Positions 9,939-33,168 of a DNA stretch of 64,000 nt are shown in pieces. Within the stretch, counting starts at the first letter, position 1. Every line of letters starts with the position of its first letter. The translations under genes and the position numbers were made by a program. Location of the stretch: assembly GCA_937951485.1 (NCBI GenBank), contig CALEDJ010000020.1, positions 52,010 through 116,009 on the forward strand. Reading direction: 5' to 3'. The notes beneath the pieces were generated by a model. That model was given only the letters and a program-made list of their open reading frames with translations. It was not told the DNA's origin and ran no database searches. Source of the DNA: an uncultured bacterium (GTDB lineage: Bacteria > Hydrogenedentota > Hydrogenedentia > Hydrogenedentales > CAILVY01).

Positions 9939-10019
9939 ATCAGGGAGGGGCAACAAGAGAGTTTTCACTTCAGATGAAGGATTTGGGATTTCACCGGCAA
10001 CCTGAAAGGGATGCATTCC

Positions 10020-11381
10020 ATGATTAGAGGGAAGAGACGGCGACTGCATCCATGCGCAGGAGTCCATTCACGGTTGGCGGCGCGCGTGGAAGACTTGGAG
10101 GCGCAATTGCGCCGCGCGCGGCGCGCCGAGCGGGCGCGGCGCCTGGAAAGCGAACGCCTGAACGAGCAGTTGCAGGTGTTGCAGCGCGCCATGGCCACCA
10201 CTTCTGAAGGCATCACAATCAGCGATGCCCGCCGCGCGGATATGCCGTTGATTTACGTGAATGAGGGTTTCGTCCGGTTGACCGGATATTCCCGGCAGGA
10301 GGTGCTGCACCGGAATTGCCGCTTTCTGCAAGGACCGGATACACCTCCGGAAGAAGTGGACAAAATCCGCGCGGCGCTGAACGAAGGCCGGCAATATACC
10401 GGCGAACTGTTGAACTACCGCAAAGACGGCTCGCCTTTCTGGAACCGCATCTCACTGACGCCGCTGCGAAACAGCCAAGGCAAAGTGACGCATTATGTCG
10501 GCGTGCAGTCCGACATCACAGAGCGGGTGCAAGCCGAAAAATCCGTCCGTGACGCCCTGACACTCCTGGAATCGGTCAATCAGCAGTTGACCGGCGCGAA
10601 CCGGCGCATGAAGCGCGAACTCGCGGCGGCGGCAAAGATGCAGCAGGCGCTGCTGCCCGACCGGGTTCCGGAAACGCCGACGGTCCGCTTTCATTGGAAA
10701 TTGATCCCTTGTGAAGAACTGGCCGGCGACATTCTCAACATATTCCGATTGGATGCGGACCATGTCGGTATCTATCTCCTGGACGTTACAGGGCATGGCG
10801 TGGCGGCGGCATTGCTGGCGGTTTCCGCCAGCAGGATGCTCTCCCCCGTCGGCAATGTGGAGACTCTTCCCTGTGAAGCCAACCATGAGGAGAGTCACAG
10901 TTACCGGTTGCTGGAACCGGCCGAAGTGGCGAACAACCTGAACCGCATTTTTCCCTGGGAGCCGGAATCGGGACAGTTCTTCACCCTGATCTATGGGGTG
11001 CTGAACCTGCGCCGCCTCACCTTCCGTTATGTCTCAGCGGGGCATCCCCCGCCGATTCACCTCAAGGTCTCCGGCGACGCCGTGTTGCCGCGCGGCAAGG
11101 GCCTGCCCATCGGCCTGAGCGAAACACCTTACGAAGAGCAGGTGATTCAAATGACACCGGGCGACCGCCTGTGGATCTATTCCGACGGCGTCACGGAAAC
11201 CGCGAACCAGAATCATGAAGCCTTCGGCAATAACCGATTGTTGGACACGCTGCGCAGACAGGCGGAGACCCCGCTGGAGAAAGGAATGGAAGCGCTACTC
11301 GCTGAATTGCGCGCATGGCGCGGCAATCGCCCTCTTGAGGACGATATTTCACTGGTTGCAGTGGACGCCAGGACGGCATAG
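10020..11381 (+). CDS. LOV-domain (blue-light) SpoIIE/RsbU-type PP2C phosphatase
   Basis: A 453-residue protein. The ATG at 10020 is better spaced from GAAAGGG than the one at 10011. An N-terminal coiled coil (about 20-55) precedes a PAS domain of the LOV class (about 57-170). It has NCRFLQ with the flavin-adduct Cys at residue 100, NYRKDG and FWN with the two flavin-binding Asn, and GVQSD with the signalling Gln near 163. A helical linker leads to a SpoIIE/RsbU phosphatase domain from about 205: AAKMQQALLP, AGD with a metal-binding Asp near 237, DVTGHG at 255-260, and YSDGVTE near 392. LOV-SpoIIE proteins probably dephosphorylate an anti-sigma antagonist in response to blue light, switching on general stress genes. 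No antagonist, anti-sigma factor or sigma gene is adjacent, so the partners are elsewhere. The domain calls are strong. Confidence 0.92.
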   Translation: MIRGKRRRLHPCAGVHSRLAARVEDLEAQLRRARRAERARRLESERLNEQLQVLQRAMATTSEGITISDARRADMPLIYVNEGFVRLTGYSRQEVLHRNCRFLQGPDTPPEEVDKIRAALNEGRQYTGELLNYRKDGSPFWNRISLTPLRNSQGKVTHYVGVQSDITERVQAEKSVRDALTLLESVNQQLTGANRRMKRELAAAAKMQQALLPDRVPETPTVRFHWKLIPCEELAGDILNIFRLDADHVGIYLLDVTGHGVAAALLAVSASRMLSPVGNVETLPCEANHEESHSYRLLEPAEVANNLNRIFPWEPESGQFFTLIYGVLNLRRLTFRYVSAGHPPPIHLKVSGDAVLPRGKGLPIGLSETPYEEQVIQMTPGDRLWIYSDGVTETANQNHEAFGNNRLLDTLRRQAETPLEKGMEALLAELRAWRGNRPLEDDISLVAVDARTA

Positions 11382-12253: not shown

Positions 12254-13702
12254 CTATTTCTTTTCCCCAGAGCCGGCTGCTGTTTTCACAAGAGGATCCC
12301 CCATCTTGTGCTGCATCTTTCCCAAGTGTTTTCTGAGACGATTCAGCGCTTCGGCGTGCGCGGCGTCTTCGGAAAGGTCGCGCATTTCCCAGGGATCGTT
12401 TCGCAGGTTAAAGAGCAGCCATTTTTCCGTGGCGGGATAGTGAATCAGTTTGAATCCGTCCATGATCAGCATGCGCTGCAAATCCATGCAGGCGCCGTAA
12501 ATGGCGTTGCGAGCCGCGGACCGGGCGCCGCGCAGCAGCGGCACAAGGCTCCGGTATTCGATCCCCTCCCACGTCGCAACGTCCGCTGTTTCCAGCAACG
12601 TTGGCACAATATCCTGCATGTAGACAGGCGCTTCGATGTGCGCGCCGCGGGGAATGCCGGGTCCGGCGACAATCAGCGGCACGCGCATACTGTGATCATA
12701 CATGTTCTGCTTGCCCATCAACCCGTGCTGGCCGCAGGCCAGCCCATTGTCAGCGGAAAACACAACGAGTGTGTTGTCACCAAACCCGGCAGCATCCAAG
12801 GCATCGAGGATCCGGCCCACCTGCGCGTCCAGATGGGCGATGATGGCGTAATATTCCGCGCGATGCACCTTTACGGCGGCCTCGGTCCGGGGAAATGGAG
12901 CGAGTTTTTCGTCGCGTAAATCCGAACCGCACCCTATCGCGTCTTTATATGGATACTCGGGCAGGAAATTTTTCGGCACGGCGATGTTTTCAGGCGGATA
13001 TTGATCCAAGAATTCCTTGGGCGACTGCCGGGGGTCATGCGGCGCGTTGAAGGACAGGTACATGAAAAATGGCTTGTCGCCGGTCCTGGCGTCCTGAAGG
13101 AAAGATTCCGCATCGTCGGCGACCACTTCGCTCCAATGGCGTCCGCCTTCCCAATATCCTCCTTCTGATGTGTCCCAGGGACGCCATGCGTCCGGCGCAC
13201 CGGACTTTGGACGGTGGTATCCCGATTCCGCGAGGAAGGGCATGCCGCCGGGCCGCACATGCGCGGTATGTTGGAACACTTGTTCCGGCGCCGTCGCCAC
13301 ATGCCATTTGCCGGAGAAATAGGTTGCATATCCCGCTTCGGCCATACGCAACGGCCACAGGCGGCCTGCGTCCCGTTCGGCATCCAACCGTTTATCGAGC
13401 GCCTGGGCGCGCCAGAGGTATGCGCCCGTCATGAGCATGGTGCGGCTGGCCACACAAATGGCCCCGTGCCATCCCCCCATGTTATAGGCGTTCACGAAGA
13501 CCGCGCCCCGCGCCGCCAGGCGGTCTATGTTCGGGGTGCGCGCCTCCCGACCGCCCAGCGCGCCAACGCATCCGGGGTCCAGATCATCCGCAAAGAGGAA
13601 CAACACATTGGGCCGGGACCGCGCCGGCGCACCAAAGGCTGGACATGCGGCCAATGCCGCCGCACCCACGCCCATTCGTGCAAGGAATTCGCGTCTATGC
13701 AT
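12254..13702 (-). CDS. Tat-exported type I sulfatase
   Basis: A 482-residue protein starting at the ATG at 13702, which follows GCGGAG and begins a twin-arginine signal (HRREFLARMGVGAAALAA). The alkaline-phosphatase-superfamily sulfatase fold is clear: NVLFLFADDLD binds metal, TPNIDRLAARG follows, and SGKWH and ADNG...GQHGLMGK complete the site. The nucleophile motif is CVASR (83-87), a Cys-type motif with Ala where CxPSR has Pro. Cys-type sulfatases need conversion of Cys to formylglycine by an anaerobic (anSME) or FGE maturase, and neither is in the window. It probably removes sulfate from sulfated polysaccharides such as fucoidan or mucin-type glycans, in keeping with the GH29 fucosidase further on. 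No TonB system is adjacent. Confidence 0.92.
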   Translation of the reverse strand: MHRREFLARMGVGAAALAACPAFGAPARSRPNVLFLFADDLDPGCVGALGGREARTPNIDRLAARGAVFVNAYNMGGWHGAICVASRTMLMTGAYLWRAQALDKRLDAERDAGRLWPLRMAEAGYATYFSGKWHVATAPEQVFQHTAHVRPGGMPFLAESGYHRPKSGAPDAWRPWDTSEGGYWEGGRHWSEVVADDAESFLQDARTGDKPFFMYLSFNAPHDPRQSPKEFLDQYPPENIAVPKNFLPEYPYKDAIGCGSDLRDEKLAPFPRTEAAVKVHRAEYYAIIAHLDAQVGRILDALDAAGFGDNTLVVFSADNGLACGQHGLMGKQNMYDHSMRVPLIVAGPGIPRGAHIEAPVYMQDIVPTLLETADVATWEGIEYRSLVPLLRGARSAARNAIYGACMDLQRMLIMDGFKLIHYPATEKWLLFNLRNDPWEMRDLSEDAAHAEALNRLRKHLGKMQHKMGDPLVKTAAGSGEKK

Positions 13703-14044
13703 CCGAAGACTCCGCTTGAAACACCGTGGGTTTCGGGTTCGCACATTAACCACCTTCTATTCATCATTATTGTGCGCCATGCGGGGCATTGCGCCGCAGT
13801 TCGAAGCAATCCGAAATAAAAGCGGCATCGTGTTTATAACAGATTACCACACTATGCTTCGCGTCGGGACGCCCGCAACAATGGGGATTGTCGCCGGACG
13901 TCCGCTTCGGATGCATGGTGACCCCATATCCGCGCGTAATTGAGACTGGCATCAATGTGTTTTTCTGAAAGCCCAGGCAACGCGGCATCATTTATAGATA
14001 TGCGTTTCGAGCAAAAGCGCATGTATCTCTCGATCAAAACGTCA

Positions 14045-14108
14045 AATGTGGATGCGGCAAGATGCCGCATCCACATTGACGAAAAGCAGACGCGGCATCC
14101 TGCCGCGT
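14045..14108. repeat. Two tandem GCGGCA/TGCCGC hairpins
   Basis: The first hairpin (14045-14077) has perfect 15-bp arms around AGA. The second (14090-14108) has 8-bp arms ACGCGGCA/TGCCGCGT around TCC. The same core with an AGA loop recurs at 33022-33042. There is no T-tract, so it is not an ordinary terminator; it looks like a REP-type dispersed hairpin. Confidence 0.85.
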
Positions 14109-14142
14109 TATTTACGCATGGATTCGGGGGTGAGTGCTCCTG

Positions 14143-14171: not shown

Positions 14172-14249
14172 TTCCCCTGCATATGCTTGCGGGGAAGGGA
14201 TGCCCATGCAAAAGGCCGTAATCCGAAGCGATGAGGGGATGCCGTGCCC

Positions 14250-15008
14250 ATGAATCGGGAATTGATTCGCGCCAATCTCAATCTCTATGCCGTGATGCAG
14301 AATCTTGAGGAACTGCCCCGGTTGGACCCGGAGATCGGGGAATTAATCAAGGACTGGAAGATTGCCATCCAGTTTTCAGTCCTGAACGGCCCCTCGGCGC
14401 ATGTAGCGTTCGAGAACGGGGTATGCATGCATGGGCGGGGGGCGCATCCCGCGCCGTCGGTGCGGCTGTTTTTCACCTCGCCGCGACATCTTAACCGGAT
14501 GATTGACGGGTCCGGCACGCCCATCCCCCTGAAAGGCTTTTCAAAACTGTCTTTTCTGCAGAAAGATTTTGCGCAAATGACGGAACGGCTGGAGCATTAT
14601 CTTAAACCGAGGAATGGATTGATTCAGGACGAAGCGTTTCTGCGGGCCAACACGACGATGACCCTTTACACTGCGGCCTATGGCGTGCGCGAACTGGCGA
14701 CATCGGATCCGTTGTGCCAATCCATCGCAGCCCAAACCCCGCAAGGCACACTCCTCATGGGTATTCAGGACGGTCCCCAGGCGCATATCCGTTTCGGCAA
14801 AGACGCCGTGACGGTTGCGAAGGGGCCGGTGGAGCATCCCACGGCGATGATGATGTTTCGGGATTTTGCGGCGGCGAACGCCTTATTGAATATGCGTAGC
14901 GACGCATTTACGGCGGTGGCGAAGGGCGAACTGTTTCTTCGGGGAATGCTTCCCATTGTGGACAATGTCGGCCTGATTATGGACCGAATACAAGGTTATC
15001 TTCTCTGA
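14250..15008 (+). CDS. Tandem SCP2-like (sterol-carrier-type) protein A
   Basis: A 252-residue protein from the ATG at 14250; an in-frame GTG at 14244 is an alternative, closer to GAGGGG. It has no signal peptide or transmembrane segment. Two SCP2-like repeats are visible. The first (about 20-115) runs through FSVLNGPSAHVAFENG to FTSPRHLNRMIDG and a KGFSKLSF strand. The second (about 150-250) runs through MGIQDGPQAHIRFGKDAV to FRDFAAANALL and GELFLRGMLP. The alternation of a ligand-cavity strand, a helix pair and an amphipathic end follows the SCP2 fold, which binds lipids, sterols and acyl-CoAs. It is the first gene of a five-gene operon and has a diverged paralogue as the last gene. Its job is probably to hold a hydrophobic substrate for the enzymes between them; this is an inference. 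Confidence 0.7.
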   Translation: MNRELIRANLNLYAVMQNLEELPRLDPEIGELIKDWKIAIQFSVLNGPSAHVAFENGVCMHGRGAHPAPSVRLFFTSPRHLNRMIDGSGTPIPLKGFSKLSFLQKDFAQMTERLEHYLKPRNGLIQDEAFLRANTTMTLYTAAYGVRELATSDPLCQSIAAQTPQGTLLMGIQDGPQAHIRFGKDAVTVAKGPVEHPTAMMMFRDFAAANALLNMRSDAFTAVAKGELFLRGMLPIVDNVGLIMDRIQGYLL

Positions 15009-15103
15009 TCCACCATGCGGGAGAACTGTCTATGATGAACATCTTGCCTGGCAATGGATGCAGCGCCGGCCGATGCTGCCGGAGAAGGCGGGAGTAACGC
15101 CCA

Positions 15104-16336
15104 ATGGAGACTTATCAATTTCCCGGATCGGCGGCGCTGTTCAAGCGTGCGGCGAAGGTGATCCCCTGCGGTGTTTATGGTCACTTCAGCCCGGCGCCGT
15201 GTGTGCCGGCGGATGCGTATCCGTTCTTCGCGTCTCGCGCCAACGGGTCCCGATTCTGGGATGTTGACGGCAATGAGTTTATTGACTACATGTGCGCCTA
15301 TGGGCCGATGATTCTGGGGTATGGCAATCCGGTGGTGGATGAGGCCTTTCGCGCCCAGATGAACCAGGCGGATTCGTGCAGCCTCGCCTCGCCGAAAATG
15401 GTGGAACTGGCGGAATATCTGGTGAACCTGATCCCTATTGCCAACTGGGCGTTTTTCGCCAAGAACGGCGCGGACATCACCAACTTTGCCGTCATGATCG
15501 CGCGCGCGGCGACGGGCCGGAAGAAAATCATCGCCATTCGCGGCGGCTATCACGGCACCTCGCCCTGGATGCAGGCGCCCGGCCACCACGGCGTTACGGA
15601 GGAAGACCAGGAAAACATCGTCCGGGTTCCCTGGAATGATATCGCCGCGCTGGAGGCGGTCTTTGATCGCCATCCCGGCGATGTGGCGGGATTCATTTCC
15701 ACGCCCTATCACCATCCCGTCTTCGCGGACAACGAAATGCCCGCCGAGGGATACTGGCAGAAGGTGCAGGCGTTGCTGCGCAAGCACGGCGCGGTGTTCA
15801 TCATAGACGATGTCCGCTGCGGGTTCCGCCTGCACATGGGAGGATCCTGCGAATACTTCGGGTTCAAGCCCGACCTGATTTGCTTCTGCAAGGCCATCGC
15901 AAACGGCTATCCCATTTCCGCGCTGGTGGGCGTGGAGGCGCTGAAGAACACCGCCGCCAAAGTTTTCCACACCGGCAGTTACTGGTTTTCCGCCGGGCCG
16001 ATGGCGGCGGCGCTCGCCTGCCTGAAGGAACTCAAGCGTCTTGACGCGCCGGAAATCCTGCGCGCCATCGGCAGGAAACTGAATGAAGGGATGGTCGCCA
16101 TCGCGAAGAGCCACGGCTATGACTTGAAAGTCACCGGAGACCCCGGCATGGCGTATTACAGGATCACCGACGATCCGACCCTGATGCTGCATCAACAATG
16201 GTGCGCGGAATGCACCCGCCGCGGCGCCTTTTTCACCTCGCATCACAACTGGTTCGTATCCACCGCGCATTCGGACAAAGACATTCAGCAGACTTGGGAT
16301 ATCTGCGACGACGCGTTCAAGGCCATCAAATCGTAG
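15104..16336 (+). CDS. Class III PLP aminotransferase (glutamate-1-semialdehyde aminomutase-like)
   Basis: A 410-residue fold-type I enzyme. The ATG at 15104 starts METYQFPGSA. Class III hallmarks are present: WDVDGNEFIDYM near 52, GGYHGT at 147-152 in the PLP-phosphate region, IIDDVRCGFR with the cofactor-contacting Asp at 235, and CKAIANGYPISAL with the Schiff-base Lys at 263. The DDVRCG form of the usual DEVxTG resembles the glutamate-1-semialdehyde aminomutase branch. A heme role is unlikely, since true HemL is normally beside other heme genes and none is here. Between SCP2-like and transketolase genes it more likely transfers an amino group to an aldehyde or ketone, perhaps a transketolase product. 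It is 32 bases upstream of the transketolase N gene, so co-transcription is likely. Confidence 0.87.
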   Translation: METYQFPGSAALFKRAAKVIPCGVYGHFSPAPCVPADAYPFFASRANGSRFWDVDGNEFIDYMCAYGPMILGYGNPVVDEAFRAQMNQADSCSLASPKMVELAEYLVNLIPIANWAFFAKNGADITNFAVMIARAATGRKKIIAIRGGYHGTSPWMQAPGHHGVTEEDQENIVRVPWNDIAALEAVFDRHPGDVAGFISTPYHHPVFADNEMPAEGYWQKVQALLRKHGAVFIIDDVRCGFRLHMGGSCEYFGFKPDLICFCKAIANGYPISALVGVEALKNTAAKVFHTGSYWFSAGPMAAALACLKELKRLDAPEILRAIGRKLNEGMVAIAKSHGYDLKVTGDPGMAYYRITDDPTLMLHQQWCAECTRRGAFFTSHHNWFVSTAHSDKDIQQTWDICDDAFKAIKS

Positions 16337-16368
16337 TGCGGCGCAACGCCAAGGGAGTGCTTACAACA

Positions 16369-17202
16369 ATGCCAATCAACGACCAGGAACTCGGCGAACT
16401 CAAGCGTATCGCGAAAAAAATCCGACTGGACATCGTTGACGTGACGGGATGGTCCGGCGGCGCGCATATCGGCGGTTCGCTCAGCATGGTGGAGATCCTC
16501 ACCATTCTCTACTGGAAATATATGAACATTGACCCGGCCCGACCGAACTGGGAAGACCGCGATCGGTTCGTGTTGAGCAAAGGCCACGGCGGCGTCGGGC
16601 ATGCCGTCGTGCTCGCGCATCGCGGCTATTTCCCGTTCGAAGACCTGAAAGAATTCAACCACACCGGCTCTAAACTCGGTATGCATCTGGACAGCAAGAA
16701 AGCGGTCGGCGTGGAAGCATCCACCGGATCGATGGGGCACGGGCTGTCGCAGGCCGTGGGCATGGCGCTGGGCGCGCGCGTGCTGAAAAAGTCTTGGCGG
16801 GTGTACTGTGTCATCGGCGACGGCGAGAGCAACGAGGGGTCTATCTGGGAGGCGGCCATGGCCGCCGCGCACTACAAACTGGCCAATCTGACGGCCTTTC
16901 TGGACCGCAACCGCATGATGATTGACGGCCCCACGGAGGAGGTCATGAGCCTGGAACCCTTGGCGGACAAGTGGGCCGCCTTTGGCTGGGCGGTCCGTGA
17001 GGTGGACGGCCACGACCTCCGGCAACTCTCCGAAGCCGTGGAGTTTGCCCAGTCCCACCTGGCGGGACCGGTAATGGTTTTATGCAGGACGGTCAAGGGC
17101 AAAGGCGTGGACTTCATGGAGAACGATCCCGCCTGGCATTACGGGGGACTGAGCAAGGAACTCGTGGAACGGGCGAAGCAATCGGTGGAACGAGAGGGCT
17201 GA
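16369..17202 (+). CDS. Transketolase, N-terminal (ThDP-binding) subunit
   Basis: A 277-residue subunit from the ATG at 16369; earlier starts in this frame would overlap the aminotransferase gene. It covers the diphosphate-binding domain of a split transketolase. LSKGHG near residue 69, GMHLDS, STGSMGHGLSQAVGMALG and the thiamine-diphosphate motif GDGESNEG...N with Mg-binding Asp and Asn are all present. VKGKGVDFME near the end is also typical. In two-subunit transketolases this part pairs with the PYR/C-terminal subunit, here encoded 4 bases downstream. Together they transfer two-carbon ketol units between sugar phosphates or related acceptors. The housekeeping role cannot be excluded, but its place between SCP2 and aminotransferase genes suggests a dedicated pathway. 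Confidence 0.92.
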   Translation: MPINDQELGELKRIAKKIRLDIVDVTGWSGGAHIGGSLSMVEILTILYWKYMNIDPARPNWEDRDRFVLSKGHGGVGHAVVLAHRGYFPFEDLKEFNHTGSKLGMHLDSKKAVGVEASTGSMGHGLSQAVGMALGARVLKKSWRVYCVIGDGESNEGSIWEAAMAAAHYKLANLTAFLDRNRMMIDGPTEEVMSLEPLADKWAAFGWAVREVDGHDLRQLSEAVEFAQSHLAGPVMVLCRTVKGKGVDFMENDPAWHYGGLSKELVERAKQSVEREG

Positions 17203-17206
17203 GAAC

Positions 17207-18223
17207 ATGGCAAAAGAAGGCGGCCTGACCTGGACGGTGTACGACGCCGACAAAATGACCCAGCGGGAAATCTACGGGCTGGTGCTCAGCGAACTGGGCG
17301 AAGAATACCCGGAGATCGTGGGACTCTCGGCCGATCTGGCCAAATCCACCAAGATCGGCACCTTCGGCGACAAGTTCCCCGATCGCTTCTTCAATTTCGG
17401 CATCGCCGAGCAGAACATGTTCGGCGTGGCGGCGGGCTTCGCCAAGGCGGGACTGATTCCTTTCGTATCCACATTCTCGGTCTTCGCGTCCATGCGCGCC
17501 GCCGAATTCCTGCGCACGGACTGCTGCTACCAGAACCTGAACGTCAAGGTGATCGCCACGCACGGCGGCACCTCGTTCGGCTCGGCGGGAAGCACGCACC
17601 ACGCCACGGAAGACCTCTCCATCGTGCGCGCCTTCGCCAATCTCGTCGTCATCGTGCCGGCGGATGCGATTGAAACCGCGCACGCCGTGCGCGCCTGCAT
17701 GAAAATCCAGGGGCCGGTCTATATCCGCATCGGGCGGGGCTTTGAACCGCGTGTCTATGAATCGTTCGACTACGGGTACCAGGTCGGCAAAGCGGTCGAA
17801 ATGCATCCCGGCACGGACATCACCGTCATCGCCTGCGGCGCGACGGTGTATCATGCCGTGCAGGCCGCCAGAATCCTCAAGCAGGACGACGGCCTCAGCG
17901 TGCGCGTGCTCAACATGCACACCATCAAGCCCATGGACGAAGAGGCGATTATGCGCGCCGTGACCGAAACCCGCCGCATCATCACTGTCGAAGATCACAA
18001 CGTTATCGGCGGATTGGGCGGCGCGGTGGCGGAAGTCATCGCGGGCGGCGGCAAGGGCTGCGCCTTCCAGCGGGTCGGCATCCCGGATACCTTCTGCCCC
18101 CACGGCTACCCCGAAGACCTGATGAACCTCTACAAAATAGATACGGACGGGATCATCGAAAAGGTCCGCGAAATCATGGGCCGTGATTTTGAGGCGGATG
18201 AGGACTGGGAGGACGAGGTGTAA
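17207..18223 (+). CDS. Transketolase, C-terminal (PYR-binding) subunit
   Basis: A 338-residue subunit. The catalytic Glu that activates thiamine lies in FNFGIAEQNM near residue 70. THGGTSFGSAGSTHH (about 120) is the substrate-side loop, and VYIRIGRG leads to the C-terminal domain with VEDHNVIGGLGGAVAEV. The first 18 residues (MAKEGGLTWTVYDADKMT) are a little longer than in many relatives. The gene is separated by 4 bases from the N subunit and has its own ribosome-binding site (GAGAGG), so this is a genuine two-gene enzyme and not a frameshifted single gene. The Asp/Glu-rich tail (EADEDWEDEV) abuts the SCP2-like gene with a 3-base gap. Confidence 0.92.
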   Translation: MAKEGGLTWTVYDADKMTQREIYGLVLSELGEEYPEIVGLSADLAKSTKIGTFGDKFPDRFFNFGIAEQNMFGVAAGFAKAGLIPFVSTFSVFASMRAAEFLRTDCCYQNLNVKVIATHGGTSFGSAGSTHHATEDLSIVRAFANLVVIVPADAIETAHAVRACMKIQGPVYIRIGRGFEPRVYESFDYGYQVGKAVEMHPGTDITVIACGATVYHAVQAARILKQDDGLSVRVLNMHTIKPMDEEAIMRAVTETRRIITVEDHNVIGGLGGAVAEVIAGGGKGCAFQRVGIPDTFCPHGYPEDLMNLYKIDTDGIIEKVREIMGRDFEADEDWEDEV

Positions 18224-18226
18224 TTC

Positions 18227-19003
18227 ATGGCGACACAACAGGAACTGATCACGGCGCAAATCGTGCTCCGCGCCGTGCTCCCGGTCATCAAGGTCATGCT
18301 GCAGGACGACCCCGCCACGCGCAAGCGCTTCGGGGGCGTCAATGCGACGGTGCAGTTCGTGGCGCAGGACGCCGCCGGGCCAATCGGCGCACACCTGCGT
18401 TTCAGCGATGGGACCGTCGAAGTCGTGCAGGAACTGCTGGAAAAGCCCGACCTTCAGTTCTCTTTCTCCAGCGTCGCCAAGATGAACGCCATGTTTGCGG
18501 GCAAACCGGTCCTGCCCCGCATCAAAGGGTTGACCAAAATCGGCCTGCTCGTGAAGGTCTTCGGCATCCTCCTCGGCCTGAAGATTCTCATGCCCACCGC
18601 CAAACCCAAAGACCCGCACAAGGCCCGACTCAAGGTGAAGATGACGCTTTACATGGTTTCCACGGCCCTCAGCGTGTTGAACAAGGCCGGCGATCCGGAA
18701 ATGACGCAATGGACCCGTAAGCAGCCGGAGCGCATCTACCAGTGGTCCGTAGACGGCGAGGACATCGCCTGCTATCTGCGGGTGAAGGCGGGGATGACCA
18801 AGGCGGGCCGCGGCTTTTATGAACGGCGCAAGCCGTTCGTCCACATGAAATTTGCCAATGTTGACGCGGCCCTGGCCGTGCTCACCAATTCCGTGGACCT
18901 CGTGCAGGCGATGGCACAGGGCATGGTGGAAAACGAAGGCAGCCCGGAATACGGCGCGCAAATCGGCGATTTCATGTTCAAAATCGCCGGCATGTTGAGT
19001 TGA
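18227..19003 (+). CDS. Tandem SCP2-like (sterol-carrier-type) protein B
   Basis: A 258-residue paralogue of the first gene in the operon, from the ATG at 18227 three bases after the transketolase C stop. The first SCP2-like half (about 30-130) has VNATVQFVAQDAAGPIGAHL, RFSDGTVEVV and a PDLQFSFSSVAKMNAMF helix region. The second half (about 140-255) ends with HMKFANVDAALAVLTNSVDL. A hydrophobic stretch (KIGLLVKVFGILLGLKIL, about 103-120) is more pronounced than in protein A and could be a lipid-cavity or membrane-contact helix. There is no signal peptide. Having SCP2-like genes at both ends of the operon suggests that they work as a pair, for example as donor and product carriers. It is convergent with the solute-binding protein gene, 13 bases away. 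Confidence 0.7.
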   Translation: MATQQELITAQIVLRAVLPVIKVMLQDDPATRKRFGGVNATVQFVAQDAAGPIGAHLRFSDGTVEVVQELLEKPDLQFSFSSVAKMNAMFAGKPVLPRIKGLTKIGLLVKVFGILLGLKILMPTAKPKDPHKARLKVKMTLYMVSTALSVLNKAGDPEMTQWTRKQPERIYQWSVDGEDIACYLRVKAGMTKAGRGFYERRKPFVHMKFANVDAALAVLTNSVDLVQAMAQGMVENEGSPEYGAQIGDFMFKIAGMLS

Positions 19004-19016
19004 CGCACCGGCCCGA

Positions 19017-20390
19017 TCAGTCCCATGCGGCGGGCGCCCCCTGGGCGATGAGTGCGTCATATTGCGCGCGCAATGAGGGGTCTGTCTCCAGGGTTTCAAT
19101 GATCGCGCGGTTGACCTCCCGCGCCGAATCTATCATCGCCTGGCGGCCGCTTTTCAGCCCTTCGCGCATCATGTCGGTGTGTTTTTCAAGAATCCGGTCC
19201 ACCATGTAGCCGTTGACAAAGGGGCTGGGGTATTCCGGATCGGCGTTTTCCAGCGCGTTCCGCCATGTGTCGTTGTAATCTTCTTCAGGGCGCTCCGGGT
19301 TGTGCAGAAAATCCGTTTCATATTCGCCGTAGTGGTATCGCTTCACCGGACCAAGAGCGTCCGCCTGCCGATTGATCAGGGCGTTCCATTCCGGGCTGTG
19401 CATGAACGCCACAAAGTCCAGCGCGGCTTCCCGGTGATGGCTGAAACGATTGACCAGACTGGCGCGCCCGCCGCCGAAAATACGGTCGCTCGGTCCCCGC
19501 GGCAGGACCACCGCGCCGATGTCCAGATGCTTGTAGTCGGGATGCCGCAAAATGCATAGCCACCACCGGCCGCCCACGGCCATCGCCGCACGCTCCGCCG
19601 CAAACAGCGCCAACGGCCCGGTGCCCCAGCCCCCCGCCGCGGCGATCGATGCCTCCTCGGTCGCCGTCGGAAGCACGCGATGCACGTGGGTCATGTCGGC
19701 GAAAAACTGCATCGCTTCCTGCGCCGCCGGCGCGTCGAGCATGCATCGGGTGCCTTCCGGCGAATAGATGTTGCCGCCCCATTGACCCAGCAGGGAAAAG
19801 CGCCACTCCCACTTGTCCAGAATCATGCCGAACTGCATCGGGCGACCCCGCGCATCGCGCTGTGTCAGCGCTTTCGCCGCGGCGATGCAATCCTCCCACG
19901 TCCACCCCGCTTCAGGATACGGGATGCCCGCTTCACGGAACAGGCGCTTGTTGAACCACATGGCGTTGGCCGTGGCGTTGCCCGCATGGCCGTACATGCG
20001 CCCGTCGAGCAAGGTGTGCGGCCAGACGCTCGGCCACATTTCGTCCCAGCGCACACCCCGCTGCGCCATGGCCTCCGTGATATCCATCGCGATATCGGCG
20101 CGGACGTATGCGGTCAACTGAAACCCGTTATAACAGTCAAACACGTCCGGTCCCACGCCTGCCATGCTCTGCACAATCACCTTCTCCAAGGTGGCGTTTG
20201 CAGGGTCCAGCACCACCCGGTAATCGGGATGGTGGGCGTTGAACAGGTCAATCTGCGCCCGACGGACCGGGTTGTCATCGGTCGCCCAGACAATCGGGAT
20301 GCGCGGATCGTCATCCCGCGGACGCCACAGTCCGGCCACCACGGACAACGCAACCAGGGCGCAGAATATGACGAGAAGAAAATGTTTCAT
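19017..20390 (-). CDS. ABC transporter sugar-binding protein (family 1), no permease nearby
   Basis: A 457-residue exported protein with a hydrophobic N-terminal signal (FLLVIFCALVALSVVAG). It follows the family 1 extracellular solute-binding pattern: IVWATDDNPVRRAQIDLFN, DVFDCYNGF, MWFNKRLFREAGIPYPE, WTWEDCIAAAKALT and FAAERAAMAVGGRW. It probably binds an oligosaccharide in the periplasm and delivers it to an ABC importer. No permease or ATPase gene is next to it in the window, so it is an orphan or works with distant components. The signal has no standard lipobox (the Cys is in the hydrophobic core), so it may be membrane-anchored by the uncleaved segment. It ends 13 bases from the convergent SCP2-like gene with no clear terminator between. 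Confidence 0.85.
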   Translation of the reverse strand: MKHFLLVIFCALVALSVVAGLWRPRDDDPRIPIVWATDDNPVRRAQIDLFNAHHPDYRVVLDPANATLEKVIVQSMAGVGPDVFDCYNGFQLTAYVRADIAMDITEAMAQRGVRWDEMWPSVWPHTLLDGRMYGHAGNATANAMWFNKRLFREAGIPYPEAGWTWEDCIAAAKALTQRDARGRPMQFGMILDKWEWRFSLLGQWGGNIYSPEGTRCMLDAPAAQEAMQFFADMTHVHRVLPTATEEASIAAAGGWGTGPLALFAAERAAMAVGGRWWLCILRHPDYKHLDIGAVVLPRGPSDRIFGGGRASLVNRFSHHREAALDFVAFMHSPEWNALINRQADALGPVKRYHYGEYETDFLHNPERPEEDYNDTWRNALENADPEYPSPFVNGYMVDRILEKHTDMMREGLKSGRQAMIDSAREVNRAIIETLETDPSLRAQYDALIAQGAPAAWD

Positions 20391-32987: not shown

Positions 32988-33021
32988 CGGGACTCTTGCC
33001 GCGTTCGCTCGCTCTTGAACT

Positions 33022-33042
33022 GACGCGGCAAGATGCCGCGTC
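33022..33042. repeat. GCGGCA-AGA-TGCCGC hairpin
   Basis: Perfect 9-bp arms GACGCGGCA/TGCCGCGTC around AGA. The core matches the first hairpin at 14045-14077. Confidence 0.85.
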
Positions 33043-33168
33043 TGCAATTGGAACATGGGTGGGTGAAGCAAAGCGAAACCCACCATTGACTATTATGTGG
33101 CGCGGTCAGGAGACCGTCCACAACAGAAAACTTCATTGCACCCACCTTGCGGGAATGCATTGAAGAAG

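Follow-up and report, generated by a model that had tools for sequence, protein, structure and literature searches.

The 64,000-nucleotide stretch of DNA analysed here (the window; contig CALEDJ010000020.1 of a Candidatus Hydrogenedentota draft genome, G000, of 4.55 Mb and 94% completeness) carries at positions 14250-19003 a five-gene operon for two tandem SCP2-like proteins (SCPa and SCPb), a class III pyridoxal phosphate (PLP) aminotransferase (AT) and the two halves of a split, thiamine diphosphate (ThDP)-dependent transketolase (TKn and TKc, together TK). Judged from sequence and by analogy with characterised enzymes, this cassette may transfer a ketol unit to a lipid aldehyde and then aminate C2, giving a sphinganine-type long-chain base without serine palmitoyltransferase (SPT), a reading to which we assign a probability of about 40%. 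The genes are:

SCPa, 14250..15008 (alternative GTG start at 14244), + strand: tandem SCP2-like protein, partner of the aminotransferase
AT, 15104..16336, + strand: class III PLP aminotransferase of the FumI clade, PLP lysine K263
TKn, 16369..17202, + strand: ThDP-binding half of the split transketolase
TKc, 17207..18223, + strand: pyrimidine-binding and C-terminal half of the split transketolase
SCPb, 18227..19003, + strand: tandem SCP2-like protein, partner of the transketolase

The five open reading frames (ORFs) are separated by gaps of 95, 32, 4 and 3 nucleotides. These spacings, the shared strand and Lys263 had been read from the letters in an earlier note on this DNA and are borne out by the ORF coordinates. 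The same note had named a class III aminotransferase and a split ThDP transketolase, in agreement with the Pfam matches, which are Aminotran_3 on AT (4.8e-42), Transketolase_N on TKn (3.5e-50), and Transket_pyr (2.9e-43) and Transketolase_C (3e-31) on TKc, and with the retention of the ThDP residues. SCPb matches Pfam SCP2 (1.2e-7); the SCPa of the window has no Pfam match, and several SCPa orthologs score as Pfam SCP2.

Searches with hidden Markov models (HMMs) built in this analysis recovered 43 loci at which SCPa-AT-TKn-TKc-SCPb is complete, in identical order and on one strand. These loci span Hydrogenedentota, Spirochaetota and metagenome-assembled genomes (MAGs) labelled Deltaproteobacteria and Verrucomicrobia, while their flanks vary, so that the neighbourhood proposed for checking is indeed conserved and its clustering is more than chance. 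Within the phylum Hydrogenedentota, TKc orthologs occur in 30 of 68 genomes and the five-gene unit, when the SCPb and TKc searches are combined, in 32 of 68; of 60 related genomes searched for SCPb, 30 yielded an ortholog, at about 60-73% identity. A TKc ortholog is carried by 32 of 392 Spirochaetota genomes, and MAGs labelled Deltaproteobacteria, Spirochaetes and Verrucomicrobia came in from a scan of genome contigs. The other arrangements comprise 19 loci with TKn-TKc-SCPb, two with SCPa-AT alone and a few partial ones, most of the partial ones near contig ends. One contig with the public label Nitrospiraceae (L041) appears identical to a contig (L063) of a genome placed in Hydrogenedentota, and the record titles of these MAGs are therefore unreliable as taxonomy.

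The cassette consists of two modules. SCPb adjoins TKc at nearly every TKc locus, and the loci where it does not are near the ends of contigs; SCPa stands upstream of AT in all AT loci but one, including those where AT is away from TK. A Spirochaetes MAG (G072) and a deltaproteobacterial MAG (G073) hold SCPa-AT (L113, L115) apart from TKn-TKc-SCPb-SDR (L048, L049), and in a third genome (G070) SCPa-AT-TKn and TKc-SCPb lie on separate contigs. Since SCPa-AT is separable from TKc-SCPb in these three genomes, SCPa is linked to AT and SCPb to TKc, and each of the two enzymes would appear to have a tandem SCP2 partner of its own; the earlier view of the SCP2-like proteins as one pair is not upheld. 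The SCP2-like character of both end genes was confirmed by structure prediction, part of the second check that had been proposed. AlphaFold2 models of SCPa (mean pLDDT 94.2, pTM 0.90) and SCPb (mean pLDDT 92.8, pTM 0.89) confidently predict double SCP2 folds, each a tandem of two alpha/beta SCP2 domains. Foldseek searches with both models returned SCP2 proteins, among them UbiJ, human SCP2 and, for SCPb, a mosquito SCP2 that has a C16 fatty acid bound. The predicted fold is that of UbiJ, the C-terminal domain of SdsA1 and SCP-2, from which SCPa and SCPb differ in having two SCP2 domains in tandem and in being tied each to one enzyme of the pair.

The closest solved relatives of the transketolase are the chains of the split transketolase of Carboxydothermus hydrogenoformans, TKn resembling the N chain of 6yak and TKc resembling 6yaj. 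That enzyme is likewise a two-chain ThDP enzyme (6YAJ/6YAK); however, it retains D469 and R91 (E. coli numbering, used throughout for transketolase), and to our knowledge it has no SCP2 or AT partner. In the 67 TKn and 74 TKc sequences compared, the catalytic site is kept: H66, D155, N185 and H261 are invariant and H26 and H100 near-invariant in TKn, and E411 and H473 are invariant in TKc. Of the phosphate-binding residues, H461 and R520 are invariant in TKc, S385 is present in 71 of 74 and R358 in 31 of 74. The acceptor pocket is remodelled. D469 is replaced in every TKc (Ala in 69, Gly in 5), R91 has become Asn in 65 of the 66 readable TKn sequences, and G99 is Met and G262 is Tyr throughout. 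In E. coli transketolase, R91 pairs with D469 (PMC5073344), and this canonical acceptor-recognition pair is not retained in the cassette. D469 is also the position that has been altered to make the E. coli enzyme take aliphatic aldehydes, and the D469T variant is described as accepting propanal and as giving a hydrophobic surface (PMC10787763, PMC5073344). Controls with D469 (E. coli, human, C. hydrogenoformans and Collinsella) retain R91, and controls with Tyr at 469 lack it, among them the Streptomyces transketolase in a LysW cluster (L203). From these residues the enzyme should act as a transketolase, but with an altered acceptor pocket. H100L was made so that pyruvate could serve as donor (PMC10787763). 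Since the cassette enzymes keep H100, the expected donor group is hydroxyacetyl and the 1-OH should stay in place, and the acceptor would be a non-hydroxylated, apolar aldehyde. The hydrophobic substrate foreseen in the earlier note is probably right.

Outside the cassettes, Paraburkholderia and Mesorhizobium plasmids (L200, L201) carry split transketolases that have Tyr in place of D469 and have lost R91. They lie beside dehydrogenases or an aminotransferase and probably form another specialised transketolase group. Plasmid records contained only distant split transketolases.

The aminotransferase has as its best solved relative FumI, the aminopentol aminotransferase of Sphingopyxis sp. MTA144 (PDB 6HBS/6HBV; E 1.4e-95 and 324 bits to 6HBS, against 169 bits for the best glutamate-1-semialdehyde 2,1-aminomutase, GSAM). 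Identity is 41% to FumI over 394 residues compared with 34% to GSAM, the motif IDYMCAYGP is common to FumI and the cassette AT, and a segment that follows the YHG motif in GSAM is absent from both. In an IQ-TREE phylogeny the cassette ATs, FumI (on a long branch) and one further Spirochaetes paralogue form one clade with 100/100 support, apart from the GSAMs. A GSAM identity of AT was ruled out by these relationships and by its HMM scores, 230.6 against a cut-off of 398 (PRK00062) and 212 against 527 (hemL). FumI works at C2 of a long-chain 3-hydroxy amine and passes the C2 amine of hydrolysed fumonisin B1 to pyruvate (PMC2933618), and the hydrolysed fumonisin backbone resembles sphinganine (PMC9858248). 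Unlike the cassette AT, FumI is a member of a fumonisin catabolic gene cluster. The earlier note had predicted an aminated polyol or sugar head group; the grouping with FumI makes an aminated long-chain alcohol of sphingoid type likelier than an aminated sugar head group. A second FumI-clade aminotransferase, 41% identical to the cassette AT, lies in G072 (L114:1197-2489) beside a glyoxalase gene and has no SCP2 neighbour.

Two steps are proposed. With a sugar phosphate as donor, the split transketolase would transfer a two-carbon ketol unit to a long-chain aldehyde that SCPb presents, yielding a 1,3-dihydroxy-2-keto-alkane (R-CHOH-CO-CH2OH). The FumI-type AT, together with SCPa, would then aminate the C2 ketone to a 2-amino-1,3-diol (R-CHOH-CHNH2-CH2OH), the arrangement found in sphinganine. 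Chemistry of this kind is described for azinomycin, where the transketolase AziC5/C6 and an aminotransferase (AziC1/C7) make DADH from an aldehyde, a glutamate semialdehyde derivative, by C2 addition and then amination to a matching amino-diol; vazabitide A follows a carrier-protein version (PMC9570651). In the LysW-linked Streptomyces transketolase (L203) the D469 position is changed as well. Both systems differ from the cassette in their glutamate semialdehyde derivative substrate and in having no SCP2 proteins, and the L203 aminotransferase is of the DegT type. The product type proposed equals that of the SPT route, in which, however, an alpha-oxoamine synthase condenses serine with acyl-CoA. 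The literature searched contains no description of the five-gene set, in line with the earlier note, which knew of no described pathway, and nothing relevant on a transketolase with sphingolipid or long-chain base synthesis, or with SCP2. Each part belongs to a known kind; what is new, as far as we have found, is that they occur together with paired SCP2 proteins, and the lipid product proposed for them.

No generally conserved extra gene was found in the flanks of the Hydrogenedentota cassettes, and the genes that flank the operon in the window are not generally common to the loci of relatives:

12254-13753, - strand: sulfatase gene, divergent from the five-gene unit
19017-20390, - strand: solute-binding protein gene, convergent with the five-gene unit

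About 150 bases before SCPa, at 14036-14110, lies a long, nearly perfect palindrome, CGTCAAATGTGGATGCGGCA-AGA-TGCCGCATCCACATTGACG, and after it a second hairpin, GCGGCA-NNN-TGCCGC; a third copy of GCGGCAAGATGCCGC stands at 33025 (33020-33045 of the window). These palindromes could be REP-like elements or a terminator. The + strand gene at 10011-11381 joins a LOV-type PAS domain (motif NCRFLQG) to a SpoIIE phosphatase, and this Hydrogenedentota genome thus probably encodes a phosphatase controlled by blue light. Neighbours that recur in Spirochaetota are TetR regulators, a VOC gene after SCPb, and ADH_zinc and SDR genes beside TK modules that lack AT. The VOC (glyoxalase-fold) protein, of 170 residues, is encoded directly downstream of SCPb in cassettes L153-L158, L161-L164 and L178. 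The AT-less variant has the order zinc alcohol dehydrogenase-TKn-TKc-SCPb-SDR (epimerase/3beta-HSD like) in L147, L152, L160 and L049, and TKn-TKc-SCPb-SDR, with no alcohol dehydrogenase seen, in L048 and L050; it may lead to a non-aminated polyol lipid.

Several observations weigh against the synthesis of a sphinganine-type base. The phosphate contact R358 is kept in only 31 of 74 TKc, FumI itself is a catabolic enzyme, Spirochaetota often have TK modules with no AT beside them, and searches for an aldehyde source or for later N-acylation genes were not successful, G000 being a draft. In favour of synthesis, no alpha-oxoamine synthase (TIGR01825, E<=1e-20) was matched in G000 at its 94% completeness, so that, within this limit, the organism probably handles no bases from an SPT of its own. 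SPT-like proteins coexist with the cassette in three Hydrogenedentota and about a dozen Spirochaetota, and the cassette is therefore not a simple replacement of SPT; a strict either/or of the two is ruled out, and the alpha-oxoamine synthases scanned in cassette-negative Hydrogenedentota score best as BioF and lend no support to exclusivity. The main rival, rather unlikely in our judgement, runs the same reactions backwards as sphingoid-base breakdown: AT would deaminate a scavenged base bound by the SCP2 proteins, and TK would shift carbons 1-2 to an aldose phosphate and free a fatty aldehyde. Transketolase and aminotransferase reactions are reversible, pyruvate is the amino acceptor of catabolic FumI, TetR-type regulators stand beside some Spirochaetota cassettes, and many cassette-positive Spirochaetota have abundant acyl-CoA dehydrogenases. 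However, the full cassette also occurs in Spirochaetota genomes that show no acyl-CoA dehydrogenase match, four in number (G258, G335, G384 and G431; 1.9-3.3 Mb), which is evidence against use as a carbon source there, and aldehyde dehydrogenase, ceramidase and transporter genes are not generally conserved as neighbours in Hydrogenedentota. Neutral ceramidase was rejected as a sign of breakdown: Pfam matches in nearly all genomes are mostly weak and N-terminal, and full-length copies, the only ones counted, occur in just four genomes, all cassette-negative Hydrogenedentota. We place biosynthesis ahead of breakdown by about two to one.

A rather unlikely alternative is that the cassette makes or remodels a hydrophobic amino-polyol other than a sphingoid base; the precursor might, for instance, be an aldehyde of polyprenyl, aromatic or omega-functionalised type. 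SCP2 domains bind varied lipids, and the VOC, ADH_zinc and SDR genes beside some TK modules indicate further steps. Changes at D469 also admit aromatic aldehydes (PMC5073344). The relationship with FumI speaks rather for a linear, long-chain compound that bears a 2-amino-3-hydroxy group. An improbable reading is soluble sugar metabolism, with an ordinary split transketolase, a sugar aminotransferase and SCP2-like proteins as lipid-free structural scaffolds; it would fit the retention of the catalytic and most phosphate-binding TK residues, but R91 and D469 are replaced together in essentially all orthologs, each enzyme has a tandem SCP2 partner, and AT falls in the FumI clade. Hopanoid side-chain modification of the aminobacteriohopanepolyol type, an analogy drawn in the earlier note, appealed to HpnO, which is likewise a class III aminotransferase. 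It is very improbable: squalene-hopene cyclase was matched in none of the 32 cassette-positive Hydrogenedentota genomes and in 9 of the 36 cassette-negative ones (68 genomes; Fisher p 0.002, with no correction for kinship), and the hopanoid link was ruled out on this ground.

If the cassette does build a sphinganine-type base, its meaning would reach beyond G000. Tentatively, an SPT-independent route to sphingoid-type lipids, in which a dedicated transketolase joins a sugar-derived C2 unit to a fatty aldehyde on its carrier and a transaminase of the FumI type adds the amine, may be used across Hydrogenedentota, Spirochaetota and other bacteria. It would be a natural counterpart of the transketolase-transaminase cascade that biocatalysis has engineered. 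An alpha-oxoamine synthase is generally regarded as the entry point to sphingoid bases, and the cassette would then represent a second, sugar-derived route. Present surveys for sphingolipid producers look for Spt (e.g. PMC11334938), and such a second route would therefore change how these producers are recognised in environmental genomes.
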